A stretch of DNA of 64,000 bases from Saccoglossus kowalevskii (lineage: Eukaryota; Hemichordata; Enteropneusta; Harrimaniidae), in the NCBI RefSeq assembly GCF_000003605.2, contig NW_003139820.1, positions 31,918 through 95,917 on the forward strand, given 5' to 3'. The translations under genes were made by a program, and so were the position numbers. Positions 11,117 through 52,600 of the stretch are shown piece after piece. Under the pieces are notes generated by a model. It was not told the DNA's origin. It saw nothing but the letters and a program-made list of their open reading frames with translations, and did not search any database. Position 1 is the stretch's first letter. Every line of letters begins with the position of its first letter.

Positions 11117-11277
11117 TGTTTTCTGCAAATGGCGAGTTACCTTTAGACTTCATGGTTACGGGAAACACCAAATCACTTGGAACGTTCAGTCAGTGCGAAG
11201 CAGTCAAAGATACCCCAACTGAGTCGTCGTTTGATGCGAATTACTGCCTAGTTACTGTTGATGCATTATTACTACCA
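11117..11277 (+). CDS. Copy A exon 2, NRF domain
   Basis: The acceptor TTTACAG precedes the exon and the donor is CCA/GTAAGG. The first two bases complete a codon begun in the missing exon 1. The exon encodes the conserved NRF segment running from FSANGELPLDFMVTGNT through GTFSQCEAV to FDANYCLVTVDALLLP, with two cysteines expected to form disulfides outside the cytosol. It is almost identical to exon 2 of copy C and has the same length of 161 bases. Confidence 0.9.
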
Positions 11278-14200
11278 GTAAGGAAACCTTTTTTCGCATT
11301 TATTCAAGATTGTGGGGGTGTAGCCCGAAACAACTGTTCGAAGCCTCGTATTGTTAGCTACTTATACACTAGCTGCTTTAATTTACGTGTAATCAACAAA
11401 TCATTCTCTAACTTCCGCCATTTGTTGCCACTCAGAAGCCATGACCACGCCTGCTTCACTGCATAAAATAACTCTACCCATTCAACTGCAAACTGAAACT
11501 TTCAGACCAACTGCTTGATTGTGCTCAGTAACACCGTTGCTTATCTCTAATTAATGCAAGAATCACCAGCTGTTATGCGGTCACTGATTGGATTTTCGAA
11601 CTTTCAGTCACTTGGCCGGTGCATAGTATCAAATAGAGGGGGACAAGGGGGATAGCTGGTACAGGCTACAGGAAATAAAAACGACATTTTACGTTTTAAC
11701 AGGAAATAAAATGAAAGTTCCATTTACAGTAAAAAATAGGGATTTACACTTTACAGATGCAGCAAATTCCTAAGTATATTTTACATTTTTATAATATTTT
11801 TGATAATTACGACATTTAATTCGGAAAATGCTTTATACGCTTACAAAAAATGATATCTTTGTACAAATTACGAACTAATAAAATAGCTTACATTTTACAC
11901 TTTGCCGTTACATTTTACACTTTGTCTACAAATTTACGTTTTTTATTTATTTAAATTACATTATTAAGAAAAGAAAATCAATTGATTATAGCTTACGAAA
12001 ATACACTTTGCCGACCGTCCAAATACAATGACAATCGCTTTCTCTAGCAACAAAGTGTTTCTGTGCGTCAAATGCTTTAAATGGGTGTGAACAGTGTTGT
12101 TCAAATAGACTACTGTGATTGGTTGCGAAATCGTCCGTCATTTAGAATATATATATAATAAATAAAACAAATAAAATTATAATAAAATAAATATAAATAT
12201 AAATAGTATATATATATATATATATACTTATAAAACATTATTTATTTTGCGGAACACCATAGACCAAATCAATATCGATGCCCTCAACGGTGTCACTTTC
12301 ACCCATATATGTTATGGTAGCGATTTGTCGGCAGAGGGCGCCTTGTCAAAAAATGTGTTTAACTAAATGTATATCAATCAACCAGCGTAAACAGAAAAAA
12401 AAACATGTGTCCAAAGAAATGAAGCAAACCTGCGCCCGGACACCTATTTGTAAAACATAAAATAGATGAAAATCTATACGTTACAAATAAATTTGTACAG
12501 TTGGTTTCATTTGATTGTAACACACACATTAATATGTTTTTATTTATAGTCATTTATGTTAGGATACTGTGTCCCAAAGTCATGCAGGAATGAAGATGTT
12601 GTTAAAATAGTGGAAACCGGTAAGTTTAACTCATTTTCACAATTATCGTGGAAAATATTTTAAATAAAATAATAATAATCTAATTGGGTTTCGCATGCTA
12701 ACAGTCAATGCTTGTTTGTCTTTCAGTGACCAGTAATCTCCCCTTCTTTTTACGGATGCGTTCCACTTCTGTGTGTAACAAGGATTATGATCTGGATGCG
12801 GGTGCCATAGCAACAATGTACGTAAATAAATTGGTTGAATGTCTTTAATTTTGTGCCAGAAATATCTTATTTCGATATAGAAATAACCGAATGAAATGTT
12901 CATAGATGCAGTCTGTATACCCACATGTTTTGTATTGGCACGCAGAATAACACTAGACAGACAAATGACAAGGCGAACGATGGCACTAAGAAGGTGTCCT
13001 TAGCAACGACGTCTGTCAGAAATACCGGTCTAATGCGAAGTCCAACACGGAGAATTACGCTTGTTCGGTGCCAAATAGGCGACAGTTAGAAAATCACAAA
13101 AACATCTTAAAGTTTTTAAATACTTATAATTTTATNNNNNNNNNNNNNNNNNNNNNNNNNNNNNNNNNNNNNNNNNNNNNNNNNNNNNNNNNNNNNNNNN
13201 NNNNNNNNNNNNNNNNNNNNNNNNNNNNNNNNNNNNNNNNNNNNNNNNNNNNNNNNNNNNNNNNNNNNNNNNNNNNNNNNNNNNNNNNNNNNNNNNNNNN
13301 NNNNNNNNNNNNNNNNNNNNNNNNNNNNNNNNNNNNNNNNNNNNNNNNNNNNNNNNNNNNNNNNNNNNNNNNNNNNNNNNNNNNNNNNNNNNNNNNNNNN
13401 NNNNNNNNNNNNNNNNNNNNNNNNNNNNNNNNNNNNNNNNNNNNNNNNNNNNNNNNNNNNNNNNNNNNNNNNNNNNNNNNNNNNNNNNNNNNNNNNNNNN
13501 NCCATGCCCCCCCCCCCCAAAAAAAAAACGCATGACAATTCATATCATCTGGATTACGCATAGCTTCTCTGCGATTTACGCTCCGTATATCTTAAGTAAA
13601 GCTTGGACCCCCCGCCCCAATACATTTTGCTAGATCCGCCACTGGTGCTTTTCTGTCCCGATTGTACTTGATCAGACAATTTACTAGCACAGAAATGGGC
13701 GGGTCATCGACTGAACCATCCGGCGGATAGATTGAGTGACATTTTAGTTTGCACCTAGGTCTATTGGTTGTCATTCAATTACTGTTTTATTCCAGATGTT
13801 TCTGTGTCATATTTGGTGCCTTGGTTGTTATCGGTACAATATATGATTTATACATTAGACGACATAATGTCGAAAATGGTTCACCTCACAGTGACAGAGC
13901 CGCACATCAAGGTAATTTAACATACAGTAAATACAATTTTGCGTAGTTTCTAGGAATTCTTTAATAATTTTTCAAAATGTTATGACAAACTAGTGCTATA
14001 AGAATGCATAGTTACACACTGTTGCACACTAAATGATATTTATAGTGATAGAAATGTACGTTATATTGATAGGATATTTTACTATTTCTATCATGGCTGT
14101 GATGTTTGTATACAATTTGGCAATGATTTTCAAATGATTCACCGTTTTTCAAAATACGCCGTTTTTTTTATAAACACATGTTTATAAACTACAATGCATC

Positions 14201-17200
14201 GTGACGTCCTGACAGCAAAGTGTACGTATGCACACAAATCTTTCTACCTGGCTGTATAATCAAACTGTCGAAAGGATGGACACGTATATAGGCAAACACA
14301 ATAGACTAATTGTGATAGATTTTCTGACGAACCCTTGACACACTACCAAGCTGAGCTGTGAACGTCATATGGTCACACCTTAGCACAGTCATTAAAATAA
14401 CACCATTTGTATTTATCTATAGTCTAAACCCCCAACTACTACAACAATTTATGCACTATCTTGTAGTATAATTGTTAGTGAATCTTATCTCTACATCCCA
14501 TCTACTATGGCTACTATTCGATAAGAAAACGAAGGCTTGGAGGGCTATTTCATAACGGTCATTTGTGTATGCCCATACTTGCACCTCACCGGGTGGTCAG
14601 TAGTAAGTTTGAGCTCATGAACACCTACATTTGTTCCACCAGGCATATCAGTTAGGGTGCCAAAATATTGTTGAAATATTTCATTCAGCTCTTTAATCTT
14701 GCTTTCTGACAACACAGGATCTAAAGGTACATCGTCGATTGTCTCTAGCATTTTAAGGGGACAAACCCAATGAGATTTAGAGACCGAGTTCCAGGTTCAT
14801 TTTCCCCCTCATCTTCTGGTCGTTCCATGGCCAAACCTAGGGATGCACTGAATATCCGTATCAACATTCTTTATACTATCACCTTACCCTCCCGCATTTC
14901 TTCATCATATTTATACCGTACAACTTAGTTTTACCCTTTTTATCAATTCGATAATCAACCGACCCGACCCATTATATAACTTGCCTTGCATTTGCATTCA
15001 CAACTTATCAGTTTATGTGGGCAATAACAGTAACACTTTACCACCTACCACGAACTTGCAGGGTTTAGTTTTTTTGTCAAAGTGAATACAATATCGCGCA
15101 CTTGATTTACCCAGTTCTATTTGTGTCATGTGACAAGTTATTTCTAATCTGTCTTTTCAATAATAACATACTCGTATTTGGTCTTGCCTTCAGGGTTTGA
15201 CACTTCGCCTGTTCACAACTATCTAATTGTCATGGGACCCCTCACTGTCCTGTCATACAGTGGTTCAAATAGAGAAATCCCAAACTAGACTGTGGTGTTT
15301 CTCTGTACGCAAACAACAACAGTGTTACATATCTGTCCCAGTCTTTCAGACGGAATGGCTACTAATTGTTGGAATGACAACAACCGACTCACCTCTCTCA
15401 TCACCTCACTTACAAACTGGTTACTTTGATTGTTCAACAATTGTTCAGAAACCCTACACGACTATTTATATACGGCACATATGATCTTTTCTCCCTTAAT
15501 ATCATCTTGTTTTTGCTTAAATGCAATACGGAAATACTCCTCTAAAGCCTCACCTTCATAACCTTCATAATAAAATAATAAAAAACATTTTGTGAGTTTC
15601 CTTTTGGGGAGTTTCTGTTATAGGTGGCATAGTGAATTAACATGGCCACGTAAAAAATATTCAAATAAAGTGAAGGAGACGCCTATTATTGCAAATACAT
15701 GCTGAAATAAGAATTCGAGATACAACTTGTTAAACATATTATTATTGTAACACATTCCACTTTGACACCAAATGTCATGAGGTTGAATTTTTTAGCACAA
15801 ACAATACTCGTGACTGTGGGTTATTTTTACATTGGTCCTCTCAATATATAACCAGATCAGAATTCATCTAACAGTGGATAACGGTCGTAATATAGTAAAT
15901 ACGTGGTGTAACGTCACTCGCATGTAATGAAAATCATAGATGTAATATGCTTTAGCAAAACACCATGTACAATAAACAATTAACTCCCAAACAATACAAT
16001 CAATAATAACAATAACAAATACTACTCTTAAATTCGCTACACTAATGTGAATGTGTGTACGAGTCACTAGTAACAAATGCCATGTGGTCAGTCGTGGGTG
16101 TTCCTCTGAAGATGAAATCGATGATTTCCTTGTCTTTAATCAGCACACTATTTAGTGGCTTGGCATGTTAACGTCAGTTAGTGGCTTCTATTATTAACCT
16201 GGTAAAGCTCTCATGGTCCATATACATACAGCCTAGCTCGAATCTCTTCACAACTTGCATGGAGAGACCCTGACCATAACCTACTCACACATCGGTCGCC
16301 AAGGAAAGACTGCCTATACTCCCAGTTCCATTGGGGTTTTCGAGGAGTGAGGGATATGGACATAGGTTATTTCAATCCTTTGTAGCAGTAGTCAAGTCCT
16401 TCCAGTAGTCAAGTCAGTGACCTTGTCTATCGAGTTTAACAGTAATTCAGCCATTTAATTTAGTTTCCTATACAATGATTCCCAATGTTCTTCAGCCAAG
16501 TTAGTTATACAGTTTGGTAGTAATTCTCATCACAAAATTCTTCCTACCTGGCTATATAATTAAACTGTCTAGAGACATGTATACTGGTAAACAGAAAAGA
16601 CTAATTGTCACAGTGTTTTTACACTAACAAATATTTCGGAATTTAGAGTGACCGCATGTCTATTTTCTCGGTGCGTATCTGGTCTCACAAATAGTTAACA
16701 GTCATGTTTTCAATTTGCGTGAGTCAAATATTCGTCGAATGTATAAATGTTTTGTACCGAAAAATAAATCTAGATATCGTATTTAGACTAATCATGTGTA
16801 AAGTAGAATAAATTATGTGATGAATGGACTTTTGAAAAACTCATAATAACCATTCTTCTTCTGTTGTGCTTTTTATTAGGGTATGTCCATCAGTTCGTCT
16901 TGGCGTGTTCGTTCCTGGAAAATGGTCGTAAGATTCTGTCAGCCAAAGTAACCTCTCCATATCTGCTGTGTTTGAACGGAATACGTGTACTCAGTTTTTC
17001 GTGGGTGTTCATTGGTCACGTGTTTATGATACTGTTGTTTGTCACAGGTACGTATCAATGTACATGTTCAGTTACTGAATTGAATTGAAGGAACAGATAA
17101 ACAATGTATCGGAAATTCCTATATTACATTCATGTTAAAGCACGGCTCCATAATACCGAGATTGCATCAGTGCGTTATGAAAAAATGTGATTTGCATGGC

Positions 17201-20200
17201 CCGCTCAGTTGATTATTACTTGGTACATGGATGTTAGCATTTCAAACGGAGGTGTTAATTCCATGTGCTAACATCTCATGCTACACTATTACTAGTATCT
17301 GTTTTGAAAAGTCTTTCGTCACGCTTTGTTCAACACTCAAGTAAGCCACTCATAGTTTTCTGGGTTTGTTTTGTTCATAATTGACAGTGAAACACTAGTA
17401 ATATTCCATTCCTGTCAAATACAGCAATTTGACAGTTACTTTTATTCGAATCTCCTGATCGCGTCACCGAGAGTGTTATCCGCAAAATTCTTTCTATGTA
17501 GACGTATCGATGTTATTGAGAATAGTAATACACTTCGTTCTCGATTGAATGTAGTGTATCTATGCTGTAGTTTTAGTTGCTTTACGCAAGGAAATACAGC
17601 CACGCAGGACATACCGCATCACTCGTGAAAATTCATACTCCACAAACATAAGGATTAGTGTTAGGGTTGTCATGGCGTTGGCATTATCCACTGCGCTGCG
17701 CACTTCAAATAATTGTTACGTTCACACGACAGCATTTTATCTGAGCCCGAAGTCTCGAGCCAGCAAAAATGGTCGTGTATACGCGTTCGGCTCTAGCCAA
17801 GTTCGGCTCAACTCCGATAGGGTTGAGCCCCGACATACGCATCGGGGCCCTTCTATCGGAGCCCAAAACTACGTCCTCAATCGTCTTCTTCAAGTAACCT
17901 CTCATTTCAATTATGGCGGAGACAGCATCTTTCGTAATTTCACATAATTTCCGGCTTCACGAAGAGGTACTCGCCCTAATATATATTTGGCAGAGTAAAG
18001 AATTACTGCGATAGATTGAAAGGTCAATGGGAAACAGACAAAAATGCCTGCAGGATGTAAACAAACACACATTCCGGCATTATGTTATTAGCATTTTCTT
18101 ATGAAACAAACATGTACATACAAGACGACGAGATGTACTGCTTTATTTAGAATGAAGCTATATTCTTTATTGAGCATGTAATTTTTATATTTTAATTTAA
18201 AAATAATAGTTTAATTAAATTCATGTGTGAAGCAAGTCCGTGATAGCAGTCATCTTGAACATTTCACGCATTTCTCGCTGAAAACCTTTCATTGTTTGCA
18301 ATCTTTTGTTTCCTGCAAAATAACGAGTCTATTTCACAACAAAATAATATTTTTTTTATACTGATATATTGCTTTGTACTTGATAGAAAACAAGAAGTAT
18401 TTTCTCGACTGTTTCAACGGATTTTGGTATCAAGCGATATGGAACGCAACGTTTTCTGTGGACTCATTTTTCTATTTAAGGTATGTGAAGTTAGAATACT
18501 ATTAGGAAGGGGTGAATAGGGTAGAATTGGTAAATCAATGTGCATGAAGCAATATACACAAACCTCGGAGACAAACAGCACTTAAATGCTTGTTACCTTT
18601 GGTATCGATGTTTTGAATATTGAGTAAAGGTCATGATAATCATGAGGCTAACATTTCAAATTGTACGAAATAAACAACAACAATAACACCCCTGTAAATT
18701 GGGCTCCTTGATATCTCGAAACTTAAGGCATATGTATAATGGATATATAACATAAGCAACAAGTTTACGCTACACGAGTAAGGTTTAAACAACACACTTT
18801 ATTCCACACACGTAAGGGGTGGGAAGGAAATACCTGACCCGTTATAAGGGGTAGTGGGATACACGTTGCATAATAGAAAAATAATAATTACGCAATAATA
18901 TTATAATACTTCCGCGCGTGTAAGGGGTGGAGGGGTGGGTAGGAAATGCCTAAATCGGAAATGCAGATGATTGTCTAACATAGAAACATGTATCCATAAA
19001 ACTACAACACGAAATTACATAAATAACGGACAACAACGGACGCAAATAATACTGGCAATAGGACACAGCCCTGCCTACGTATATATTTTCTATCAAGTCT
19101 CCGCTAACAGTGGTGACGAAGGTAGTTGTAGAATGCAGTCAGAAGCACCTTAGTTGCAGAACACACGCTGCACACTCAGTCGACGACGCTACCAATCATT
19201 ACAGCGAGTATCCTATATTCGTAACTTGTAGAAGAAAGCTGTCCGGGTGGACTCCCGTGCATCACAGAACACACCAGTAGCCAGCAACATACATTATAAG
19301 CTGCATCTAGTTCTAAGCCAAAATCGGGAATCTCAGTTACTGGCGAGTTTCCCGACTCGTTATCAGCAGTTGGACAGATGATGCATTATGAATTTGTAAT
19401 CCAGAGTGCATTGTTCAAACATTACTGGTAAATGCATGATTAGTGGAGACATGGAAATCGGTATAATTAACTGTCTGCCAGCGAAACGACGTCCTCTAGA
19501 ATAAATCACAAACTTCCATGATGCAATACTATGGCTCACTGTACTTACAATATCGGACATTCACAGTAAGAGTGTTTCAACTCATTCAGGTATCAGTTTC
19601 ATAAGTAGGAGGTTCACTGCCATTGCTTGTTCATCATCTAACCCTTCACAAATGTGCACATCTTTAGTGCTTTCCTTACTTGCAATTGTGATTGTTTCCA
19701 CCAAATCTCATCTCATAATTTTAAGAGGTTAGCATGATCTAACCCTTTCAATCCTTTCAATCCTGTAATCTATCTGTCCCAATCTCTCTTTCACAACGTA
19801 ATTTACTTGCCATTGCATTTTTAGTTTATCATGTTCTGTGGGTAGCAGTAGTAGAACATGACCACCTACCTCAAATAGACGCTGCTTGGCCGTTTTGTCA
19901 TATTGAAATTTGTATTATGACTGGGCCTTAGATAACTCAATTCGAGCCAGTTTACATGTTCCCCCCAATCTGCCATACACCTCTAGCACTTACTTGTAGA
20001 TGGACTTCAATCTCTCCAGAAGTAGACTCACCTGTTCACAATTCTCTCAAGATTGACATGGGATCTCTGACCGTTCTCCCATACAAGTTCAAAAGGGTTT
20101 TCATTTTGTGCATTAGGCAAATAATAATAACCTACATACCGATCCCAATCCTTTGGTCTTTCGTCACACATTATCCTGAGTGTTGTGCCATTGAATATTT

Positions 20201-23200
20201 CCACAAGTCCATTGCAAGCTGGATGGTAAGAAGTGGCAGTAATACGCCTAATGGACAAGATACTTACCTCTTTCATCAGGTCATTCACAGATTGGCTTTC
20301 AAGATCAGTCAGATTATGTTCAGGAACACCCAACTGTAAATTTCAATCAATGCTTCAGACACAACTTCTGTTGTGATCCCTTTAAAAAGCACTGCATTGA
20401 AATATCTTTTGACATAATCCATGAATGTCATTCTCATTCAAATCGTATAGTTTTAACAGGGCAAATGAAGACTAACATACACTACAATGGCTTTACCCCT
20501 AAACCTACATACATGTTCAGACCAGACTTCAAGCAAATACCTCAAAATGAACCTTAAAAGCATCCATATCCATATCCTTAAATTCAGACAATTTAGGAAG
20601 TTTAACATCCATTCTTTAGTCATCTAAAATTGATCACCAGTTCCTCCTGCTCCCCCGGTTATTTGTTTTCATTCTTTCCAATTCAAATTGCCTTTCTCTC
20701 TCCTTTTCCACCATTTTCCTTTTTTCAGACCGTTCCCCTTTCTTTGTGCCTTGTGCATGTGCTTTTCACCTCTCCGCCTGCATCCCTAGTATGCTGCTGA
20801 TGCTGATTATTCTCTTATCAATGTGTTCTTCTACTCCTCTCTTCCTTCCTATCTATCGCCATAAACCAAAAACAAAACACCACCATCACAATATGCAACA
20901 TAAACATGATTTAATGTTTGACATTCGTGACAGTTATGTGTTCTCTATTTGCAGTGGTTTGTTAGTGACATACCTATCAATGAAACAGATGGCTAGTAAC
21001 AATGGTAAAATAAACTGGTTGGTGTATTACATTCATCGCTATTGGAGAATAACATGGGTGTTGTTGTTTGTAATGTTGTTTTATACATACCTCATTCTAC
21101 ACATGTTCGATGGACCGATGTATCAATTGACCTATGAAGATGCAAGGAAGAAATGCAATGAGTATTGGTGGACGAATATGTTGTATATAAACAACTGGTA
21201 CCCCTTTCCAGGTGTTGGCGGCCCCGTAAGTAGGACGTAATTTTAGTACTTGTTCTATAGTAACTATTTTTTATATAATGAAAATGTCTGAAATGTTGAC
21301 CAATAATAGTACTATTAACTAACCAATAGTATACACACATATTTCTTGTTCGAGTTTGGTAGCCAGAGTAAAATAATGCTAATTAATGTAAGTCATGCTC
21401 TGTGAAAGTTTACTGACTGAAGCGACGTTCCATTTCATTATGTGATTCGAAGTTAGTATTTTCTATATTTAGAAATGTAGACGAAATTACTTGTTAAACT
21501 TTCAATACGGAGGTCGGTTTTGCCGGGGATTTCTTAAAATTGTTAGTCAATCATCACCCCAACGAAACAAGTTATTACAGAATACATCAATATTGATAAG
21601 TGATAAATTATCTTAGGCCAATTAAAATGTGACCATTAGTGTGCCTTTGGAATCTTGGACCGTACATCTAACTGTAACGCCGTCGCTGATTGGCTGTTGA
21701 GCTGGAATGACAATTTTTGGTTTCAAATACCCCAGGAATGTGTTCTATTAGTGTGTAATTAGGTGTAGTTAGTATTTAAGGGATTTTTCCACACAAAAAC
21801 ACCGAATTCGGCCGAATTTTGTTATCGGTTGGCTTAATATAACCCCAGCGGTTCGTATTTTTGTGAAAGATTGGTATTTTTGTCCTGATTTGTAGGAATC
21901 TGAAAAACGCGTTTCACAATTTGTCTCTTATTTAGTTTTGTGCCGCATTCAAGATGGCGGCCCCCATATAGTAAATATCGCATTTCTTTTATTATCACGT
22001 GTGTGCCAGCTGACTGTGGTATTTTACTACGTGCACATGAACTTTTAAGGCATTTAATTTCTACTTCCCCGTACTTCTTGAAAGTCAAAGCTATGTCTAA
22101 AAAATATGGTATACTCGTGCTGCATCATTAAAACCTTGAAACTGGGGCATGTTAAGTGATTTCGGCTGACAGTTGACATGACCAATGTTTTCATATTCGA
22201 CATGTGTAATAAAAAAGTTATTAATGTGTAGACTAGATTTACAATCACGTTCTTATTTCACCGCGTAGTGTATTGGATGGGTATGGTATCTGGCATGTGA
22301 TATGCAGTTCTATTGGCTCAGTCCACCAATACTTATTCTGCTTTACAGGTACGTTATTTTGACAGTCTTTACTTGCCAAAGGGAATATTCAGATCTAGTT
22401 CGCATCAGTCAAAACCACTGTTACAATTTTGAGAATAATTCGTTGAAACATTAACCAGTCAGCTGGTTCTTTCAAACAAGTTACTAAAACATAGAAAGAA
22501 AACATATTTTGTTGATACGAAAATAAAGTACCAAAGTCTGGATAGATTGACTTAGATTATTTTCTTTTACCTGTTTTACAACAGCTTTCCAACCTCTCGA
22601 TACCGTTACAATATTTATGTGCGTGTATGACAACTGTCAACAAACTATCAACTGTTGATGTCTTTATGTATTATAGGTCTTGGAAATGGGGCATGGGGTT
22701 GATCGCATCGCTATGTGTTGCGTGTTGGTGTGTCGTCGCTCTTATTGCTACACATTTTGGAGAAGTTGCTTCTATTTTCCATGAGTAAATATCTTTACAT
22801 TATTTCACTGCAAATTAACTAAACTATTCACCAAAATGATGTCACGTATTAAATTTTCATGTTATAAGGAAACATAATTATGTCGTTATTGTTAATGTAC
22901 ATGAAAGGTTCATTGGTATTTACGTGTTCATAAATCTGGGTCTCTGAATATCCATGTATTTGACTTCTGTGACTGTGAATGTCCATGAACATAGGCCTAC
23001 AAATGTTCATAAACCTCTTAGTCCACGTAACAATACGGCCGTGGCACCGACCTGGGTCTCTGACTATCCACAGACTTGGTTCTCCCAGTGTAAATGATGT
23101 TTGTTTCTGAACATATGTCTCACAAATTTTGGCTTGTTCATTAATCTTCATCTGTAATATGTGCCACACCAAATGTGCGGCGAATGACTGAATGTGTGAC

Positions 23201-26200
23201 TGAAGTAGTGTGGTCGACAATTTCAGGTAAGAGCAAATATAATTACACTCTGAATTCAAGGTCAATGATTTAAAGTCATCTATGAATGTTAATTAACGAG
23301 TGGTAAGCATTATCATATGAGATACTATGATACGATATGCTTATTGTTTAAACAGGAGTAATATGCGATATTTATACTAGGTCACGTGACAGGTTGTTAT
23401 TTTTTGACACATGGTAAAACAATAACACCGACACACCGAGCGAAACCCTGGGATAGTATCATATTTTTGCAACCTAGCTAGGGCTGGCAACTTTGTGGGA
23501 ACGTAGGAGATTATTGTCAAGCATTAACAGTTTTTGTTTCTAATAAAACGTTCCATGCCAGTGCTCGCGAACGATAACGATCTCAACTTACTTGGGTGCA
23601 TATTCACAATTGTATGCAAATTTATACTACAGAAGCCAATTGTTCAGTGCCACTCATTGATAGACTATATAATTTGGTAGTTGCCAATAATACATATATG
23701 TAAATCAGTATTGTACCATCATATTTTACATCAGCATCAGTAACTTTCACATGAACAATGTTCACATTTCGTTTAAACAAATATGCATTGTATTACGTCA
23801 TATAAGAATCATTCTCAGCGTGTTGAGACGACCAAATCACTTCATCGAATTGTTATTCGATATATTAGATATTAGATATTAGATTAGCTATTAGATATAA
23901 GTCTTCATTCATTTGCTTGACAGATCAATAGTCTTATATGAAATAAATATATTCTCATGACAACCAATTATAATATGACAATTATTGATTGTGCTCGTTG
24001 GCACACATTGTTTACAGCATTTATAACATCTTCTTGTTGACAGAAACTTTGATCCATATGGTTACGCCTAATTAAATCACCTTTCTCTGTCTGACACTTC
24101 CCAAGGAGGTACAATGATAACATCAATGATGCAAATGGTAATGACGTTGTATATGGGAAATCATACACACGGTGGCCTGTGTACATGGTTGGCATGATTA
24201 CAGGATATATACTTTATAGATTGGAGGGGAAAAAGTTCGAAATGAGCATGGTAAGTAATGCTCGCAGTATTATTTGAGAAGTGGGCACGTTATGGGTCAT
24301 ATTAGTTGATGTTTCATTTACTGCGAGATTTCACGTATATATATATATACTTCTGACATCATTCTCTGGGTGGTAGGCATTTGTAGTCAGTGGTTGGTGT
24401 GTAGCCATTGCTACAGGATTGGCTATAATCTATGGTCTATGGTACACAGTAGAAGGACACTATATGCCACAATGGTTAGCTGTGTTATATATCACACTTA
24501 GTCGTCCAGCATGGGCTGCAGCATTGGGTTGGATGACAATAGCATGTGTCACAGGATATGGAGGTAATAGTAAATTTCATCATTACATATACCAGACAAA
24601 CATTACATTAATGAGAACAACAGCATATATTTCCGGATGATCATCTCAAAACACATTTTTGTCGGCCGATATATTCCCAGGGACCCACATACAAGGGTAT
24701 ATGTTATACACAACATTAACACAACTTGTTCATTTCGACCATGAATAACATGCGCAGTTCAGCCCAGGAGTATGGTGCTCTGAATTTGATATGCGAGAAT
24801 ATCGATCTTCTCGCAGCATGTATAACCCATAATTACTTGACAAATTTCTGCTTTGAAAAAGGAATAACCCGTGGCATTGCTACTTAGTCTGCTGCCGAGA
24901 AAAACGCTGTTTCTTGCGTAAGCGCAATGAAATACTAATTTCTTGTTGGGTTCTAGGTTCTACTCGTTTCGAGCTACTAACATCATATAATGTTGCGTTA
25001 TAATTTAACAAATTAGCGAGGTTGAGAAACAACAATGAGTAATGTGTCAAACAAAAGCGTATACTTTGAATAATGCAAAAGTTCAAAAGCTACAAAACCG
25101 CTGTTTATATCACGTTGCTATGTGTGAATTTCCAATTCTCCTAACGTGTTTTCTTGTAATATACTACCATAGTACGAGGTGACGAGAAGCTATGTTTGTT
25201 TTAAAAACACCTAATAGTGTCGGGTAGTAGTTTCTGAGAATATTGCATGCTAAAGTCATTCATTGATGATGCACGATAGTTTGTTGTAGAAACACAGACA
25301 GATTTGGTTTATTACATACTGACATCGAGTACAAACGGTACATAACTAATAGTTACAAAATTCACACTCTTTATAGCCGGAGTCCGAACCTAAAAGCGAA
25401 CGCATGTGATTGGTCTGAATTAAAGTGCTCTGATTGGCTGAGGAAATAAGAAATAATGTTCCATTAATTTTTCTTATAAATGATTGTGACATAAACTAGG
25501 TAGTTATCAGTACGTGGCTCGGTCGTGGCTCCGAGCAAGCAAAACAAACAAAACTAAAACAGTGAGAACAGTTGTGAATAAACTAGAACTAAAGAGTGAA
25601 AACATGGATTGATTAAACACGGAGTTAAAAAGTATGAGATTCGCTAAAAATAGTGTAATAATTCTGAATTTGAATTCAAAACAAGTAAAAAATACAATGT
25701 TTTCAGCTGAATATCTTTACATTTACAAAATAGTTGACAATTATGGCGAATGCCAACGTCACGATGACGTCATGTGTACGATTCTAACACCATACTGCAA
25801 TAAAAGCGCAGTCTATTGCAAAATGTGCAATATATTAACACGTTTGACAATAATTAGTTTTCGTACGTGTACCATGTTTCCCTGTTTTGAGCAGTTGATC
25901 ATACATCCGCAATCACTATGAACAGTCTTCACGGTTGTGTGATCTCGATTTAATCTAGTTTATTCAGTTTCAGGGAAGAGTTACAGGTCTACTAGTATAT
26001 AGGACCATATATAGGACCTTGCTTTAGCCAATCAGATGGCTAGATTCAGATTAAACACGTTATAATTAATCACGTGATTTTATATTTAGGTCCAGTCAAC
26101 ACTATTCTGTCATGGAAGATTTGGATACCATTGTCACGACTCACATTCAGTGCGTACATGATACATCTTCCTGTCATTGTCATGGGATACATGAGCCGTG

Positions 26201-27705
26201 ATAGGTTGTTATTCTATGACGTATATAATTTGGTGAGTAAACTCACACGTGATATGTTGTTGTTCTATGACGTATATAATCTTGTGAGTAAAATCACTCG
26301 TGATAGGTTCTTATTCTATGACTTTTATAATCTTGTGAGTAAATTCACTCGTGATAGGTTCTTATTCTATGACGTACATAATCTGGTGAGTAAATCCACT
26401 CGTGATACGTTGTTATTCTATGACGCGTATAAGCTGGTGAGTAAATTCACACATGATAGGTTCTTATTCTATGACGTATATAATCTGGTGAGTAAATTCA
26501 CTCGTGACAGGTTGTTATTCTATGACGTATACAATGTGATGCGTAAATTCACACGTGATATGCTGTTATTCTATGACGTATATAATCTGGTGAGTAAATT
26601 CACACGTGATAGGTTGTTATTCTATGATGTATATAGTCAGGTGAGTAAATTCACACATGATAGGTTGTTATTCTATGACGTATATAATCTGGTGAGTAAA
26701 TTCACACATGATAGGTTGTTATTCTATGACGTATATAATCAGGTAAGTAAATTCACACATGATAGATTGTTATTCTATGACGTATACAATCTGGTGAGTA
26801 AATTCACACTTGATAGGTTGTTATTCTATGACGTATATAATCAGGTAAGTAAATTCACACATGATAGGTTGTTATTCTATGAGGTTTATAATCTGGTGAG
26901 TAAACTCACTCGTGATAGGTTGTTATTCCATGACGTAGAGAATGCGAAGTGTAAATTCACCCGTGATAAGTTGGTATTCTATGACGGTGAATTTACACGG
27001 ACAGTTAAAACATTTAAATATCAGTTTGCATTTGCTACTGCACAGTTCTAGATATTATATTGTGAAGCATGAAATTATGCAAATGTTCTCTCTAGCAGTA
27101 AAACTGTTTTTATATGCAAAACTATCTAAACATTTCTACCTATGACACACAGGAAATCATTATATTTTGGTCATAAGTTAAGTATTGAAGAGCAGATTAT
27201 TTTTCTTTTATTGAGTAAGAAGGCATTTTGTCGATGACCTGATGGTGTTTCATAATAAGTTAAATTTAATATTGCTCATTTTAATTAGTTATTTGTGGAT
27301 GTGGATATCATATCTATTCCTACAGCGAATGTCTATCTCTACAAGTATTCAGATGTTCAATCTTCTCATAATAAAAAATACCCATCTCCCTCACATTTCC
27401 TGTTAGTTTCATTATATTCTATTTACTCAACTATTGCCTGAAAATCGTGGCTACACAATGATTATATGGTGTAGAAAATACACTCTGCCTTTCAGTCCTA
27501 TTATTGAGTTCGTGCCTAGAAGAGTCATTTTTTCGTCGTTCATCAATTGCAAACTAAAACATATACACTTTTTGATTTTGACTTGCAGGTTTATTTGATA
27601 CTTGGGGGAATTGTCCTGACTTTTGCTGTGGCGTTTACCATATCCGTATTTTTAGAAAGCCCAACCATTGGTTGGGAGAAAATAGTATTGAAGAGAATGA
27701 AATAA
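11117..27705 (+). CDS. NRF-6-like membrane acyltransferase, copy A (exons 2-14)
   Basis: Thirteen exons join in frame to 582 residues plus stop: 11117-11277, 12550-12619, 12727-12817, 13796-13911, 16880-17047, 18387-18480, 20955-21225, 22269-22348, 22677-22784, 24106-24250, 24377-24563, 26090-26232 and 27589-27705. All have AG/GT borders and compatible phases. The start exon (about 115 residues, by comparison with copy C) is not in the window. Exons 2-4 carry the Cys-rich NRF domain (GTFSQCEAV, GYCVPKSC). Exon 5 is a membrane span. Exons 6-14 form the AT3 domain, with the arginine and histidine of GIRVLSFSWVFIGH and the VDSFFYLSG motif made across the exon 7/8 join. Family knowledge: C. elegans NRF-6 and NDG-4 are multipass proteins implicated in intestinal lipid and drug transport, and AT3 proteins move acyl groups across or at membranes. 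The substrate here is unknown. The exon 13 donor is tandemly amplified. Exon structure is certain from copy comparison; functional integrity is inferred. Confidence 0.9.
12143..12232. repeat. AT-rich simple repeat
   Basis: Runs of TA dinucleotides and of AAATA/AATAA words occupy an intron of copy A. The long TATATA stretch at about 12209-12228 is a microsatellite that is likely length-variable. Confidence 0.85.
12550..12619 (+). CDS. Copy A exon 3, NRF domain
   Basis: This 70-base exon encodes SFMLGYCVPKSCRNEDVVKI and a few further residues, the second cysteine pair of the NRF domain. The acceptor TATAG at 12545-12549 was chosen over the AG at 12561-12562 because only the former gives phase 0 after exon 2, and copies B and C have their AG at the same place. 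The donor is ACCG/GTAAGT. Confidence 0.87.
12727..12817 (+). CDS. Copy A exon 4, NRF domain end
   Basis: The exon starts after TTTCAG and ends at AAT/GTACGT. It encodes the segment TSNLPFFLRMRST and then CNKDYDLDAGAIAT, leading into the first membrane span. At 91 bases it equals the exon of copy C (53251-53341). Only 107 bases of intron separate it from exon 3. Confidence 0.87.
13136..13501. other. Assembly gap of 366 N
   Basis: Unknown bases lie in the intron between exons 4 and 5 of copy A. The right edge is a run of C then A, a low-complexity stretch that probably stopped the assembly. Open frames that cross this gap have no meaning. Confidence 0.99.
13796..13911 (+). CDS. Copy A exon 5, membrane span and linker
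   Basis: After TTCCAG the exon encodes CFCVIFGALVVIGTIYDLYI, a clear membrane span, followed by a charged linker (RRHNVENGSPHSDRAAHQ). The donor is AAG/GTAATT. The linker is the least conserved part between the three copies; copy C has 131 bases here against 116. Confidence 0.88.
14221..16620. repeat. Pair of diverged direct repeats of about 100 bp
   Basis: The segment at about 14231-14330 and the segment at about 16521-16620 share the order CTACCTGGCT, then TATAAT and AAACTGTC, then AGACTAATTGT. They are direct repeats in the intron between exons 5 and 6 of copy A. They bracket the gypsy remnant at 14545-15500 but are not shown to be its LTRs. Confidence 0.6.
14545..15500 (-). mobile_element. 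Ty3/gypsy remnant (polyprotein pieces), old fossil
   Basis: The minus strand at 14545-14751 resembles the stretch just before gypsy reverse transcriptase. Sequence at about 14940-15300 is alignable with the integrase end of the second remnant at 19780-20100. The parts are out of normal order, so this is a rearranged or composite relic. It is heavily broken and old, and sits in an intron of copy A. Confidence 0.65.
16880..17047 (+). CDS. Copy A exon 6, start of AT3 domain
   Basis: This exon carries FVLACSFLENGRKILSA and then LLCLNGIRVLSFSWVFIGHV. The arginine and histidine of GIRVLSFSWVFIGH match the R...H pair of the first AT3 membrane helix, where the histidine is thought to be catalytic. 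At 168 bases it is equal in length in copies A, B and C (57052-57219 in C). Confidence 0.92.
17680..17900. repeat. GC-rich block with a long hairpin
   Basis: A GC-rich island in an AT-rich intron. CTCCGATAG (17812-17820) pairs with CTATCGGAG (17853-17861), and GCCCCGA (17827-17833) pairs with TCGGGGC (17842-17848), giving a nested stem. The word TTCGGCTC also recurs nearby. It could be a fragment of a small non-autonomous element or a structured intronic sequence. Confidence 0.6.
18387..18480 (+). CDS. Copy A exon 7, AT3 domain
   Basis: The exon encodes ENKKYFLDCFNGFWYQAIWN and then ATFSVDSFFYL. It ends in AG, which joins the T of exon 8 to make the serine of the DSFFYLSG motif, equivalent to the D.FF.LSG signature of acyltransferase-3 proteins. 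At 94 bases it is identical in length to copy C. Confidence 0.9.
18481..20954. other. Copy A intron 7
   Basis: The intron holds AT-rich unique sequence, two stretches with the word TAAGGGGTGG (near 18811 and 18919), and the gypsy remnant described separately. Nothing else coding was recognised. Confidence 0.6.
19360..20740 (-). mobile_element. Ty3/gypsy remnant (integrase tail and gag-like piece), old fossil
   Basis: The minus strand at 20333-20028 reads as the C-terminal part of a gypsy integrase, with TSYHPACNGLVEIFNGT followed by the usual downstream block. The purine-rich minus strand at about 20720-20660 encodes a charged Glu/Arg-rich stretch such as gag N-termini of this family have. 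The relic is broken in several places and old. It is inserted in intron 7 of copy A, opposite to the gene. Confidence 0.75.
20955..21225 (+). CDS. Copy A exon 8, AT3 membrane helices
   Basis: The largest exon, 271 bases, carries GLLVTYLSMKQMASNNGKIN, then a WLVYYIHRYWRITWVLLFVM helix, and a loop with DGPMYQLTYEDARKKCNEYW. It ends GGP/GTAAGT in phase 0. Copy C exon 8 (59210-59480) has the same length and is nearly identical in protein. Confidence 0.93.
21226..22268. other. Copy A intron 8
   Basis: An intron of about 1 kb with AT-rich sequence and no recognised gene or element. A short GC-richer patch near 21670-21710 contains GATTGGCT, a CCAAT-type word. Confidence 0.5.
22269..22348 (+). CDS. 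Copy A exon 9, AT3 membrane helix
   Basis: After GCGTAG the exon encodes CIGWVWYLACDMQFYWLSPP and then ILILLY. The WYL..DMQFY.LSP block is strongly characteristic of NRF-6-type acyltransferases. The donor is ACAG/GTACGT. Confidence 0.93.
22677..22784 (+). CDS. Copy A exon 10, AT3 membrane helix
   Basis: The exon encodes SWKWGMGLIASLCVACWCVV and then ALIATHFGEVASIFH. The acceptor is TTATAG and the donor ATGA/GTAAAT. It continues the helix bundle after exon 9, with one split codon on each side. Confidence 0.9.
   Translation, partial: VLEMGHGVDRIAMCCVLVCRRSYCYTFWRSCFYFP
22785..24105. other. Copy A intron 10
   Basis: No gene was recognised. A pair of related words near 22937 and 23053 (CTGGGTCTCTGA followed by a TATCCA motif) suggests an old local duplication. 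A short TTAGATA-type simple repeat lies at about 23862-23900. Confidence 0.5.
24106..24250 (+). CDS. Copy A exon 11, AT3 domain
   Basis: The exon encodes RYNDNINDANGNDVVYGKSY and then TRWPVYMVGMITGYILYR. The Y.K.Y.R.P.Y..G...GY pattern is the usual NRF-6 family signature for the helix after the large luminal loop. The donor is ATG/GTAAGT, phase 0. Confidence 0.92.
24377..24563 (+). CDS. Copy A exon 12, AT3 membrane helices
   Basis: The exon encodes AFVVSGWCVAIATGLAIIYG, then YITLSRPAWAAALGWMTIAC, ending TGYGG. LSRPAWA..LGW....C..GYGG is highly typical of the NRF-6 family. The donor is GGAG/GTAATA. Confidence 0.93.
24564..26089. other. Copy A intron 12
   Basis: No gene was recognised. The part at about 25370-25600 has CCAAT-type words (GATTGG), a TATAAAT at about 25475 and an AATAAA word near 25576. 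This mix is seen in retroelement LTRs and promoters, but no paired copy was found. Confidence 0.45.
26090..26232 (+). CDS. Copy A exon 13, AT3 helix and start of the repeated segment
   Basis: The exon encodes GPVNTILSWKIWIPLSRLTF, then SAYMIHLPVIVMGYM and the first repeat unit, SRDRLLFYDVYNL. The reference donor at 26233 (TTG/GTGAGT) matches the position used in copy B. Reading on through this donor stays open to 27051 because of the in-frame 51-bp units, so the exon could be extended by multiples of 17 residues. Confidence 0.9.
26197..26985 (+). repeat. 51-bp minisatellite of exon end plus 5' splice site, about 16 units
   Basis: The unit begins as CGTGATAGGTTGTTATTCTA, continues to the exon end (TATATAATCTG) and then includes the donor GTGAGTAAATTCAC. 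Unit joins fall every 51 bases from 26233 (26284, 26335 and so on to 26947). Thirteen of the fifteen joins keep GTGAGT or GTAAGT; those at 26539 and 26947 do not. The frame encodes SKFTRDRLLFYDVYNLV with few changes per unit, and no stop occurs until after the array. The loop thus encoded lies between the last two membrane spans. Whether the units are spliced out, partly exonised or mixed cannot be told from the sequence. Confidence 0.95.
27589..27705 (+). CDS. Copy A exon 14, last membrane span and stop
   Basis: After ACTTGCAG the exon encodes VYLILGGIVLTFAVAFTISV, then FLESPTIGWEKIVLKRMK and TAA. The FLESP..GWEK ending is the normal NRF-6 family C-terminus, so the gene ends here. Copy B has the same exon at 44852-44968, and the 110 bases before it are also closely similar in both copies. 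Confidence 0.94.
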   Translation, partial: VYLILGGIVLTFAVAFTISVFLESPTIGWEKIVLKRMK

Positions 27706-28388
27706 ACATTAAGAGTCTGTGATGATAGGTAACTCATTCGTTACAATGCAAAGAAGGGCAGTAGTATCAGCTGCTGCTTCAATTTGATATCAGACATCAT
27801 TAAAAGTATGTAATTGATTTTCTGATTCATGCACTCATTTGTCCTATGCTTTAGTGATGTTTTCTCCCGAAGTATGTCTTATGACACAGTGTTATGTTAT
27901 ACCAGGAAAAATCAGCACAGGACAGTAGAACACAATTCTCTGATGGAAAAAGTTATTGCGTGTTCGTATAATTTAAACTGAAACTTAAACACGTTAACTG
28001 AAACGCTATTATTTAGAAAAGGACTCTTATGTAAACCATGCAAGCCTTGCCTTAAGTGACAGTCGTTCATATTGTTTTATTATTTTATAAGCAGTGTAGA
28101 TTTATCTTACTACAAATGTTATAGCAATGAGGGGAAAGTAGTTTCAAACTTTTAGCGAGTCATGTGTTACTTAGGTTCTATGGTTAAATATACACGTGTA
28201 ATTCGCATGGAGTGATTAAGCATATCGGGAACTCAGATTCAAAACATCACAAGCTGATAACTTGGTTGGTAGGCCCCATAATATTGGTGTTGGATGCTTT
28301 CAGTTTCCAGAATATCCACTACATTAATAGTGACGTAGAAAGCAGTATTAGTTTGAATAACGAATGTTTGCAATAGTTAAATACTTAT

Positions 28389-28525
28389 GAGGGTAATATC
28401 ACGATTTGTGAGGGTAATATCACGATTTGTGAGAGTAATATCACGATTTGTGAGGGTAATATCACGATTTGTTGCCTGCCCAAGGGATGGTGGTCACCAA
28501 CAGCCCAAGGGCAGACATTAAATCG
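28389..28525. repeat. Four 21-bp units followed by an inverted repeat
   Basis: GAGGGTAATATCACGATTTG plus T is repeated four times (28389-28472), with one changed base in the third unit. Immediately after it, TGCCCAAGGG and CCCAAGGGCA face each other around a GC-rich centre (GGTGGTCACC). Confidence 0.85.
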
Positions 28526-33822: not shown

Positions 33823-35369
33823 ACCACCATATGCCGCGGATTCCACCGTATAGCACGGATACCACCATATGCCACGGATTCTACCGTATAGCACGGATAC
33901 CACCATACGCACGGATACCACTATATACCACGGATTCCACAATATGCCACGGATACATCTATATGCCACGAATTCCACAATATGTCACGAATTCCACAAT
34001 ATGTCACGTATACCACCATATGCCACGGATTCCACAATATGCCACAAATTCCACAATATGCCACGAATTCCACCATATGCCACGGATTCCACCATATGTC
34101 ACGAATTCCACCATATGCCACGGATTCCACAATATGCCATGAATTCCACAATATGTCACGAATTCCACAATATGTCACGGATACCACTATATGCCACGAA
34201 TTCCACCATATGCCACGGGTTCCACCATACACACGGATAACACCATACGCCACGGATTCCACCACATGCCACATATTCCACTATTTGTCACGGATTTCAC
34301 CATATGCCACGANNNNNNNNNNNNNNNNNNNNNNNNNNNNNNNNNNNNNNNNNNNNNNNNNNGGGATTCCACCATGCGCACGGATTCCACCATATGCCAC
34401 GGATTCCACAATTTGTCACGGATTCCACCATATGCCACCAATTCTACCATATGCCACGGATTCTACCATATGTCACAGATACAACTATATGTCATGGATT
34501 CCACCATGCACCCGGATTCCACTATATGCCACGGAGTCCACCATATGTCACGGATACCACTATATGCCACGGATTCCACAATATGCCACGGATTCCACCA
34601 TATGCCACGGATTCCACCATACGCACGGATTCCACTATATGCAAAGGATTCCACCATATGTCACGGATACCACTATATGCCACGGATTCCACCATACGTC
34701 ACGGATTCCACTATTTGTCACGGATTCCACCATATGCCACGAATTCTACCATATGCCACGGATTCTACCATATGTCACAGATACAACTATATGTCATGGA
34801 TTCCACCATGCACCCGGATTCAACTATATGCCACGGACTCCACCATATGTCACGGATACCACTATATGCCACGGATTCCACAATATGCCACGTATTCCAC
34901 CATATGCCACGGATTCAACCATATGCCACGGATTGCACACTATGCCACGAATTCCACAATATGTCACGGATACCACTATATGCCACGGATTCCACCATAT
35001 GTCACGGATACCAGTATATGTCACGGATTCCACCATACGCACGGATTCAACCATATGCACGGATTCAACCATATGCCACGGATTCCACACTATGCCACGG
35101 ATTCCACCATATGTCACGGATTCCACTATACGTCACGGATTCCACCATACGCATGGATTCAACCATACGCACGGATTCCACCATATGCCACGAATTCCAG
35201 TATGTCACGGACACCACTATATGCCACGGATTCCACCATATGCCGCGGAATCTACCATATGTCACAGATACAACTATATGTCACGGATTCCACCATGTGT
35301 CACGGATACCACTATATGCCACGGATTCCACCATACGCACGGATTCTACCATATGTCAGGGATTCCACT
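33823..35369. repeat. 19-bp minisatellite, about 80 units
   Basis: The core unit is ATTCCACCATATGCCACGG with variants (ACAATATGTCACG, 18-base CATACGCACGG forms). Because 19 is not a multiple of three, the array cycles through all frames. By chance no unit contains a plus-strand stop, so three long plus frames stay open (up to 511 codons). A larger block is repeated: ACAGATACAACTATATGTC occurs near 34477, 34779 and 35266, the first two about 302 bases apart. Fifty N lie inside. It lies in intron 1 of copy B. It is not judged to be protein coding. Confidence 0.95.
34313..34362. other. Assembly gap of 50 N
   Basis: The gap lies inside the 19-bp minisatellite, so the true number of units is unknown. 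The even size of 50 suggests a placeholder rather than a measured length. Confidence 0.99.
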
Positions 35370-47900: not shown

Positions 47901-49287
47901 TACCTAGTTGCTCTATTCTCCAAAATTTCAGAATTTCAAATTTGTCCACGCAAGTAACAGTTCTGTCAAATTCAACTGCACTAAGCTTTGCTCCTACTAT
48001 TAAGGGTTTCTGTCCCTTTTCATTGTATTGTATGTAACCTGCATCAATGAATCTCTCTGAGTAGGGTAATAAATACCATAAAAAGAGACAGTTATTATAC
48101 AAACAAAAATCTCTTTATTTAACACTACAACATGTCTGAAAATAAATGACTCATGACATTGACGCTGCAGGTCAGCGTCCTCTCATTCATTTCAATGATT
48201 TTTTACTAAACTATACTAGCCCTAACAATTGCATACTCAGCAATCAGTTTATACTGATAATGCCTTGAATGAAATGCGTAGTTTTGCGAAAAAACACCGG
48301 CGGCAAAGCGCCATTTTAGCCAAAATTGACTAGTAAAGCGTCATATGACATAGGTCTGTGCTACGACAGCGCGTTCTTTTACGACACAACTAATTCTGTA
48401 CTTTGTTTAAAACAGTACTTTGACCTACGCTGACTACGGTGCGACCTTTACCCCAAGTTCTCTATCACACAGAGCTCAAATGTTACTTTTTCATAGGCCA
48501 AAAATTAATTTTCATTCCATCACATTATATTATCGGAAGGTTTGGACTATGCAATCATAGGAAATGTAGTAATTGCAAACAGGAAATCCGACTTATTACA
48601 ATCTTATTCCTCTGAGTTTCATTAAGAATTAAATTATTGCTTTTATTAAGAATGAAAAAACATTTTAAAAAAATGTCATCCCAGTTTGGTACAAAATTGC
48701 AACTTAATATGCAATCATTTCAAACTAAATAATCTACATATATTTAATGCCTCTGTTTAATTGGCATTGATGCGTGTAAGCTATTTATGACCTAGAAATG
48801 AACATTGTCTGAATGCACTAATCATGACGTAATTGTTCATCGCGCACCAACAATTAAGAAACCAATAGTCAACAGTATGAGTGGCTTAAATAACACGATA
48901 ATTTAGATACAATATGGGAACAGACTTCGTGAACTGCGTTGGTACTTTTACGTGGTTACCAATAGACAATTTATGTAATCTGATGTTGTTTTGGAATGTG
49001 GTCGATATCTCGGATTTTGTATTTTTTGTAGTGCATACCTTGATTCATGGCGTGTTATTTATCAATACTTGTGTCTTGATGGTGTCGTCTATATAGATAC
49101 ACAGTAAAGTAATGAATAGATAATTCAAATATGGCGGAATAGTGACTCATTATTGATAAATATTCATGATGTACACACACCTTTTGTGAACTATGACCAA
49201 TGACGTAGAGATGACTTGAATTGAAGTTGTGATTATCAAATCAAGCTGTTCAGTTGAGACGTTAAGTACAGTTTTATTTCAGAAAAC
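44969..49287. other. Intergenic region between copies B and C
   Basis: The start matches the copy A 3' region and is likely old 3' UTR. A poly-G run lies at about 47682-47692. No gene, tRNA or clear transposon was recognised; the short frames present are not conserved-looking. The last 95 bases are the copy C 5' flank. Confidence 0.5.
49194..49287 (+). promoter_or_regulatory. Conserved 5' flank of copy C exon 1
   Basis: It contains CAATGACGTAGAGATGAC at about 49198, AAGCTGTTCAGTTGAGACG and CAGAAAACATGG, all with counterparts before copy B. The ATG at 49288 is the first in frame and opens a signal peptide, which supports this start. Confidence 0.55.
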
Positions 49288-49633
49288 ATGGAACTGCTGT
49301 ACAAACTGGTGATATTGATGTTACTTCCAAGCCACTGTTCCCATGTATCAGCGCACGCTCTCAGCAAATGTTTTGCACCATTTGCCGCCAAACTCTCTGT
49401 TTCTGAATCGCTCTTTCCAGATATTGTTGAGACTGTAAATTCTAATGACTTTAAATATTTGTCATTAGTGGAAGACGTTTGGAAAGCAGCGTCCCGCCTC
49501 CCATGTGTACGGAACAATGGGTCGAGTAACTTGGTCCACAGCACAGCACGGATGAATATATCTGAGCAATGTCGTCGTGATCTGGAAGAATATTACTGCG
49601 ATCTTGAAGAATCTAAACTATACGCTTTACAGA
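49288..49633 (+). CDS. Copy C exon 1, signal peptide and NRF start
   Basis: The exon has 115 codons plus one base, ending CAGA/GTATGT; joined to exon 2 it reads ALQMFHANGELPLDF, the usual NRF consensus. Cysteines are at KCFAPF, LPCVRN, QCRRDL and YYCDLE. After the signal peptide this part should be extracellular or luminal. The same exon in copy B is broken and in copy A is missing from the window. Confidence 0.9.
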
Positions 49634-52600
49634 GTATGTATTTTTATCCATCGCTTTTATTCTCATATAACTGTTTTTACGTCAAGGAATCCACATTTGT
49701 GTTTGCCCTAAAACTTAATAGTTGCCTTATTGTTCAAGGTTAAGACAATATTTGATCACTGGCATACAATAAATACAGGTAAAGGTCAATGTCAGCGGGT
49801 GTAACGACGCTGTTATGTACAAAATATCCACGACAACCCAGAATGTACGAAATAACTGAATTATGTGTTGTTGGTTTGATATTAAATGTACGAAATAACA
49901 GAATTCTGTGTTTTTGGCGAGTTGCTGGTTTGATATTAATGTATTGTCAATGTACTAGCTGTTCTCAAGTATCACATAATATTCTACGTACATGGTGAGC
50001 ACAATCGACGTGCATTAACATTTCGTCATAGCAAATTAGTTAATTTGATATGTCACATGACATACTCATAACGTCGGATACTGACAATCATGTTTCACTC
50101 TAAATGCTTGAAAGTTGGGGTTCTATTTGATATTATTCGTACTGATCCCGGATGGTCCGAATTTTGACCCCACAATTTTGGTAATTTCTTACCAAAAAAA
50201 TGTCCCACGTCGATGTCTTTGAGTCAATTGGCTGCAGAGCATTTCTACCCAAAATGAAGGTACATACCTCTCTGTGACCGCACTACAAGTGCAGCAATTA
50301 AACGTGTTATTAAATAGAACAAGATGGTCCGAGATTAACTGCTTAGCAACAGAATCACACTTAAAAAGGTCGACCTGAGTTTACCTAGAACAATGCTGGC
50401 GTGTTTCTATAGACCGCACATTTATGATGTATATTCTGAAGTAGATGTGTCATGTGCATCATGGAATACTACGTAGTTGATCATACGATAAGATGTGCAA
50501 TGTTTACAGACAATTCAGGCTATCACTTTACTACACCTTTACGTAGAAGACTTTGATGAAGGCAGTTCGAGCATTTCTTGTCACATTGTTTACAATTTTT
50601 TTGTTTATCCCGATTTACTCGTTGTACAGTTTCCTAGTACTATAGTTTTATTTATTTTTAGTTTTATCGTTATTGATAATCACGTACAATTATCAAGATT
50701 TTCGAAGTTATAAGCACATTCCAGGCATTTTTCCCATTTTACAGAAACACTGGGCTAAGCTGTGTTTCACTCCATATAGGGATCGGGAAATGTTAGAATC
50801 ATTAATACCTGTCGAACAGTACACCCTCATTATCAGATGATAGACTCCTTGACATATGGGGTGCGTTCAAGGGTGGAGTTACCCCGACTAAAGATAATAG
50901 CTTAACTTGCAAGTTTGAATTATTCAACAGATAGTTCCCAGTTTTTTGGGACAGCTCTGTGGGAAGCAGTTGCATTCCTGCTTAAAACAGGATTTGGCTG
51001 GGATGTAGTTCTCATATTCGGAGAGCTTATGATAAGAGGAAAATCGGATCGGAATCGACGTTTCCAGCTGTATTTCAAGATTTCCTATGCAACGGGAGTG
51101 GGTGAATCTCAGCCTGAACTTTTGGTGACTCTGTGGTGACATCAGTTCTCATTCGTCAAAAAAACAGCTGACTGGTGACATCTGATGGCAGCTGTAACCA
51201 AGCTGATATAGGGTACAATAATTCTACCACTCAACTTTCTACTTTCAAACTGTCTGCTGAATAACACTTGTACTGTGAGTTGGGATTGGTAGTCAAGTTG
51301 TGTCCCACTATACAACTATTTCTGAATTATGACGATTGAATATGAACTTTTGATAACATTTTATTGCACAGCACCCTCAGCGCTGTACCTGGGTAATCCT
51401 TGTACACACCCAGGCCACGCCCGTTCTTGTTGAACAGCGCCCTCAACTATGTACCTGGATAATCTGCGGACACACCCAGGCCACGCCCGTTCATGTCGAA
51501 CAGCGCCCTCAACGATGTGTCTGGGTAATCTGCTGACACACCCAGGCCACGCCCGATTTCGTCGAGCAGCGCCCTCAACGATGGATTGTGTCAAGTCTCA
51601 GGAACTGCACACAGAAGCTGAATGTGATTGAACTGTGACCTGATGTGAACATTGATGCTGAACTGTTGATGTATTCCTGCGTTTGTTCGTTATTCACACC
51701 TGTGTTTTTTGATTGATTCATGATTATTGTTCATTTATTGTTGATAAGGCCAGACTTTTATTATCCCTTGTTTCGCGAACCCGGCGAATGAACAGGAGCC
51801 GAAAATGAAATAAAAAAAGCATTGGTTTTGTTAGGAACAAATTAGATGATTCTATTATTCATTGAGGGACCGATTAGCACATTTAAACTCTAACTAGCTA
51901 AGATTAGGTTTTCTTTTTTTGATATATTTTTGGAATATCCTACCTCACATATTTATATGCATATGCTAATTTTTGTACCTTTGTTTATTTTACTGAAATA
52001 CATTACATTAAGTATTGTGAAGTTAAAGTGCCTGTGTGTGCTGCCTGGTTTTGTTGCCCCTGCTTCCGGTCTTGGTGTTTATATCGATGAACCACATGTA
52101 TCTTTCCTGTGCAGAGCCCCAAAATTTATCTTTCCCGTACACATTTGTCCCACTGAATCAATGATTTGTGAGGCTTTGTGAACGGAGTGTTATATTTATA
52201 CCTTCATACTATTGCAGTTTATGCTTTCTGTGATGCACATATTTCGACAACATTTACGAAATCAGAGTGATGTTTTCACATGCCCTAGTGATTTATTTTG
52301 CGATGACCTTTTATCATATATTTGCAGTAATATTACACCGATGTATGTACACTAGCGTACACACTATTTTGGTGACGTAAAAATCAACTTAGTGATAACA
52401 AATATTTTATTCGCCTATTTTGTTCACAGTGTTTCATGCAAATGGCGAGTTGCCTTTAGATTTCATGGTTACAGGAAACACCAAATCACTTGGAACGTTC
52501 AGTCAGTGTGAAGCAGTCAAGGATACCCCTACTGAGTCGTCGTTTGATGCGAATTACTGTTTAGTTACTGTTGATGCATTAATACTACCAGTAAGGAAAG

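Follow-up and report, generated by a model that had tools for sequence, protein, structure and literature searches.

Can a tandem repeat multiply a 5′ splice site so that a single coding exon is followed by a series of usable donors, and is such a series a maintained device or a by-product of repeat growth? The question is raised by a gene of the hemichordate Saccoglossus kowalevskii, whose penultimate coding exon runs into a minisatellite. The window analyzed here is a stretch of 64,000 nucleotides (contig NW_003139820.1, positions 31,918 to 95,917 of the forward strand), and positions below are those of the window, on its plus strand (+) unless otherwise indicated.

The host gene and the array

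The host gene was modeled as 13 exons, e3 to e15, with GT–AG boundaries: 11 stop-free upstream exons (e3–e13, 11117..24563, +), a penultimate coding exon (26090..26232, +) and a last exon including the stop codon (27589..27705, +). The joined exons give 582 residues with no stop and match PF20146 (NRF; 32.4 bits, cut-off 27) and PF01757 (Acyl_transf_3; 79 bits, cut-off 31). Both scores are above the curated cut-offs, and the gene is an NRF-6-like acyltransferase; an earlier note on this DNA had called it an acyltransferase. The penultimate exon is bounded by an AG at 26088–26089 and a GT at 26233, and its phase fits both neighbors. Its homologue is present in all five sister copies, partially in the one called L012. 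The last exon follows the acceptor TTTGACTTGCAG, codes over 27589–27702 before the stop, and supplies the C-terminus with, as judged by eye, the last membrane span. A run of N (13136–13501, 366 bases) lies between e5 and e6.

A protein search with the joined exons without the repeat returned 25 relatives, the best of which is P0001 (Nose resistant to fluoxetine 6-like protein, S. kowalevskii), 94% identical over joined-exon residues 330–582. P0001 is the product of the sister gene L013, with exons at C3087:81–104.6 kb (in BLAST, three of 13 pieces are 100% identical and the others 65–98%, some of these extending past the exon ends), and it uses the junction corresponding to the donor at 26233. 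Its residues 1–115 equal, by eye, part of the window frame 49258–49740. No first exon of the array-bearing copy was seen within the 64-kb window, and the contig before the window is N. The designation of the penultimate exon as exon 13, in a gene of 14, therefore presupposes the layout of P0001, in which residues 1–115 form one upstream block. Among solved structures nothing matched at E 0.001, and a stretch on the minus strand (20028–20342), guessed to be a retroelement, gave no Pfam match.

The penultimate exon ends in a 51-bp minisatellite (26197..26986, +; TRF score 1167 for 15.5 copies of period 51, with 0% indels and 87% matches), whose head-to-tail unit comprises 36 nt of exon end and 15 nt of intron start. 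In the in-register alignment, unit 1 consists of the last 36 nt of the native exon and the 15 nucleotides with which the intron opens. Thus, the tandem unit spans an exon end together with a donor-like site, and the array starts where a coding exon has its native donor, as indicated by the exon model and the homologous single donor of four sisters. GTGAGT or GTAAGT is retained at 13 of the 15 unit joins, namely in units 1–6 and 8–14; unit 7 has ATGCGT and unit 15 AAGTGT at this place, without a GT at 26539 or 26947. The native donor, TTG/GTGAGT (26233..26238, +), lies at the junction position of the four single-donor copies and of P0001. Twelve further donors (26284..26901, +) begin at 26284, 26335, 26386, 26437, 26488, 26590, 26641, 26692, 26743, 26794, 26845, and 26896. 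A stop-to-stop frame of 335 aa (26044..27051, +, stop codon included) is open across the entire array, and every donor of the array, if spliced to the last exon, joins it in phase 0 with a step of 17 residues. The earlier description of about 16 repeats of an exon end with its donor, of GTGAGT or GTAAGT at 13 of 15 joins, of a 17-codon unit with the frame open throughout, and of donors joining the last exon in one phase is borne out by these data. Its ladder of up to about 14 in-frame isoforms is mechanically possible, but 13 donors allow at most 13, and the +102-residue step is absent. Units two places apart are similar beyond chance (P 0.0065, against P 0.10 for adjacent units), which points to 102-bp duplications.

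As a known protein domain, the repeat gave three Pfam matches, all under the curated cut-offs. Among the proteins scored with repeat queries only P0001 was returned, and P0001 is without the repeat. No repeat-bearing protein was found among the approximately 8000 candidates with most shared words per search in a database clustered at 90%, a weak negative, since such clustering could hide a protein of this kind.

Tests of selection on the array

One reading is that the array is a selected ladder of isoforms: the number of units and the donor chosen would together adjust how long the loop preceding the last membrane span is. The 17-codon unit, the open frame, the 13 retained donors and the lack of indels agree with it, and so do a second open array in the sister gene C962 and a borderline excess of synonymous change. 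The 15 units hold 37 distinct changes, distributed over codon positions 1, 2, and 3 as 12, 10, and 15. Synonymous changes number 13 and nonsynonymous ones 23, and one would be a stop if alone (null means 9.1, 26.3, and 1.5, respectively); this single stop-type change makes no stop within its own unit. A synonymous count at least as high as observed has P 0.05 with 15 units and P 0.03 without unit 15. The comparison of synonymous with nonsynonymous change proposed earlier thus gives a borderline excess here, but none in the C962 array, in which two of six changes are synonymous (P 0.78). The donors are not depleted of change: positions −3 to +6 carry 10 changes, and the probability of 10 or fewer is 0.97. 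Of 20000 trials in which the changes were placed at random, 19% kept an open frame and 68% retained 13 or more donors. Selection on frame and donors, put to three tests, is therefore not needed, as random placement suffices (P 0.19 and 0.68).

Divergence along the unit tells a similar story. Within the array, exon-derived and intron-derived parts differ at 0.132 and 0.130 per site, while between the window array and the C962 array the values are 0.105 and 0.216, a contrast that would be expected if constraint covered only the native exon copy. Furthermore, the mean number of residue differences, out of 12, is 2.8 for units 2–14 and 0.93 for the six native copies, a comparison in which ages are not matched and the native set includes L012, perhaps a pseudogene.

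The indels are a separate case. None occurs among the 37 changes, while intron rates of 0.073–0.127 events per substitution predict about 2.7–4.7, and the Poisson chance of zero is about 0.01–0.07. This was considered as a mark of selection on frame, but 0% indels are found also in three of eight other arrays, and in one of two pieces of a fourth (13 sequences scanned; the count of eight leaves out same-place repeat rows and both 51-bp arrays). Together, the synonymous excess and the zero indels lean weakly toward selection. Against a selected ladder stand the explanation of frame and donors by random placement, the greater variation of units than of native copies, the four of five sisters without an extra donor, and the weak negative of the protein search, and we regard it as very unlikely. 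The ladder as a maintained device, as proposed in the earlier note, is thus unsupported by the 12/10/15 pattern, the random placements and the single-donor sisters, and the simplest null that the note itself named, recent expansion of a unit that is a multiple of three, was rightly stated, frame and donors being as random placement gives them.

Sister genes and unit remnants

The genome (572 Mb in 4830 contigs) was searched for further copies, with the best candidates scored. At least six close copies carry the array exon: the array-bearing copy with L012, L013, L011, and L010, all on one contig, and C962; seven more distant matches (L039–L045) are found beyond these among the matches listed. 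A separate 51-bp array is found in C962, with six units, five of them carrying GT, and an open frame; the consensus of its unit differs at four sites from that of the window array. L010, L011, L012, and L013 have one donor each, and the close copies, sister genes of one genome, accordingly hold 15.5, 6, or 1 full units. In all seven distant loci (about 3.1 kb each) the 51-bp array is absent; other arrays are present in three of them.

Directly behind the single donor, unit-like stretches outscore all 1000 two-base-block shuffles in four of four sisters and in neither of two controls, the margin over the best shuffle being small (1.5 to 7.5 points). L011, L012, and L013 have a common 2-base alignment gap at the donor of the remnant. 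These scores suggest that the four sisters carry partial or eroded unit remnants behind the donor. Probably, the array or its seed is older than at least some of the family members, and whether it was lost, kept or expanded differed from copy to copy.

The array copy itself gives dN/dS of 0.26–0.30 against L013, L011, L010, and C962 (13, 13, 12, and 10 of 13 exons compared, respectively) and 0.37 against L012 (7 of 13 exons compared). As values among the other copies span 0.18–0.47, it does not look relaxed. The L012 gene (30373–44965) is the next family member in the window; its first-exon matches contain stops and e8–e13 are without match, and it is probably a pseudogene. Other repeats are also found in the sisters: in C962 a 33-bp repeat, in about 84 copies, lies between e9 and e10 (L009:9537–9992 and L024:1–2330), and in L011 the intron preceding e12 contains 12 copies of a 48-bp unit (L011:2720–3307). 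Several introns of the acyltransferase family seem to have accumulated minisatellites.

The most probable explanation, in our judgment, is a donor-spanning minisatellite that expands and decays in each gene copy, with extra in-frame isoforms as a by-product and not a selected function. The minisatellite that straddles the penultimate exon's 5′ splice site is probably older than at least some of this small tandem gene family, and in every gene copy it seems to undergo its own expansion, homogenization and erosion. The present array has 15.5 units with 13 GT donors. One animal's gene family thus holds a natural series of 13, 5, and 1 GT-bearing donor copies before a homologous last exon, with both the window and the C962 arrays open in frame. 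Such a series is a natural test of how the spliceosome chooses among near-identical donors, whether the first, the last, the strongest or the nearest, and it bears on whether growth of a donor minisatellite yields protein length variation or is silently tolerated. It also suggests that donor arrays erode back to one site.

Donor choice and comparison with known donor arrays

On the transcript, the array would offer U1 many near-equal binding places. The strongest three lie deep in the array (26641..26850, +, by U1 duplex energies): CAG/GTGAGT in unit 9 (26641) and CAG/GTAAGT in units 11 and 13 (26743 and 26845) have −13.7 to −13.8 kcal/mol, while the native donor has −10.8, as have seven other units, and units 2 and 3 have −7.1. 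Pairing strength alone would favor the deep units, and exon length and order the first donor. Exons longer than 550 nt between long introns are usually disfavored. A takeover by units 9, 11, and 13, with a main protein longer by 136–204 residues, would need such an exon, and from units without the constraint of the native copy; even with the strongest pairing in the array and, in CAG/GTAAGT, the full consensus, it seems a long shot. Hairpins that hide or present donors are a still more remote explanation: a short hairpin, GUGAGUAAACUCAC, occurs in some units, but the fold of 26197–26961 is not unusually stable for its composition (z 0.25; of 20 shuffled versions, 11 equal or exceed it in stability).

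Alternatively, 26233 may be the sole donor in use, with the remainder of the repeat leaving inertly with the intron. In favor of this, the corresponding junction is the one found in P0001, four sisters lack any further donor at this place, the native donor yields the shortest exon (143 nt), and the pattern of change in the array looks neutral. However, 10 of the 12 non-native donors equal or exceed the native one in U1 pairing, so that strict use of the first donor needs an extra rule. A human counterpart is IFI6 (6-16), with a 12-nt unit in about 26 copies. There, a minisatellite at the exon end gives multiple donors, and in the available text two downstream units are reported as used (PMC4526556), which likewise speaks against an inert repeat. 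We consider exclusive use of 26233 rather doubtful. Under the donor-spanning minisatellite with by-product isoforms, most splicing would proceed from the native or nearby donors, and a minority of in-frame +17n isoforms would have a longer loop ahead of the last membrane span. That the donors serve as a splice-site copy-number dial, in which 17-codon donor steps and the choice of U1 set the loop length of the acyltransferase, perhaps differently between sister genes and even individuals, is improbable to nearly the same degree as the selected ladder.

The array is of the kind found in human CBS and IFI6, and the principle has been recorded already; its own traits are the in-frame unit and the sister-gene series. 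IFI6 resembles it in the supply of multiple donors by a minisatellite at an exon end, and differs in its short unit and in belonging to an unrelated gene and animal group. We know of no sister-gene series for IFI6. The human CBS repeat, c.1444_1467+7(16_21), is the nearest precedent, ahead of IFI6, and is described in the available text as a 31-bp VNTR of 16–21 units with invariant length and substitutions between units (PMC2630376). Read literally, this notation means the last 24 exon and the first 7 intron nucleotides, and each unit should carry a donor. As in Saccoglossus, the unit spans exon end and intron start in many copies, but 31 is not a multiple of three, which allows no in-frame ladder, whereas the Saccoglossus unit is 51 bp with 15 intron nucleotides and a second array is present in a sister gene. 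In human segmental duplications, internal tandem repeats alter the exon/intron structure of young duplicated genes; what the available text describes is lengthening of exons or introns and the creation of introns from cryptic sites, in contrast to amplification of a single donor (PMC2812944). ABCA7 and TERT also appear, in the portions of the literature available, as genes with repeats affecting splicing; nothing on the Saccoglossus locus appeared in these portions, and amplified donors were recognized there only for CBS and IFI6. With NRF-6-like acyltransferases the domain content (PF20146 and PF01757) is shared, while P0001 lacks the repeat.

How often should such arrays arise? Ten distinct tandem arrays (period at least 15, at least three copies) were counted in about 160 kb scanned. 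A genome has on the order of 200,000 donors. By rough arithmetic, random placement regardless of genes would bring hundreds of arrays into contact with a donor. Given this array density and donor number, and with one in three periods divisible by three, the configuration is unusual yet not improbable. Two further repeats lie nearby in the window, a 21-bp repeat of four copies (28388–28472) just behind the gene and a 19-bp array of 82 copies with 78% matches (33824–35368) in the neighboring gene region.
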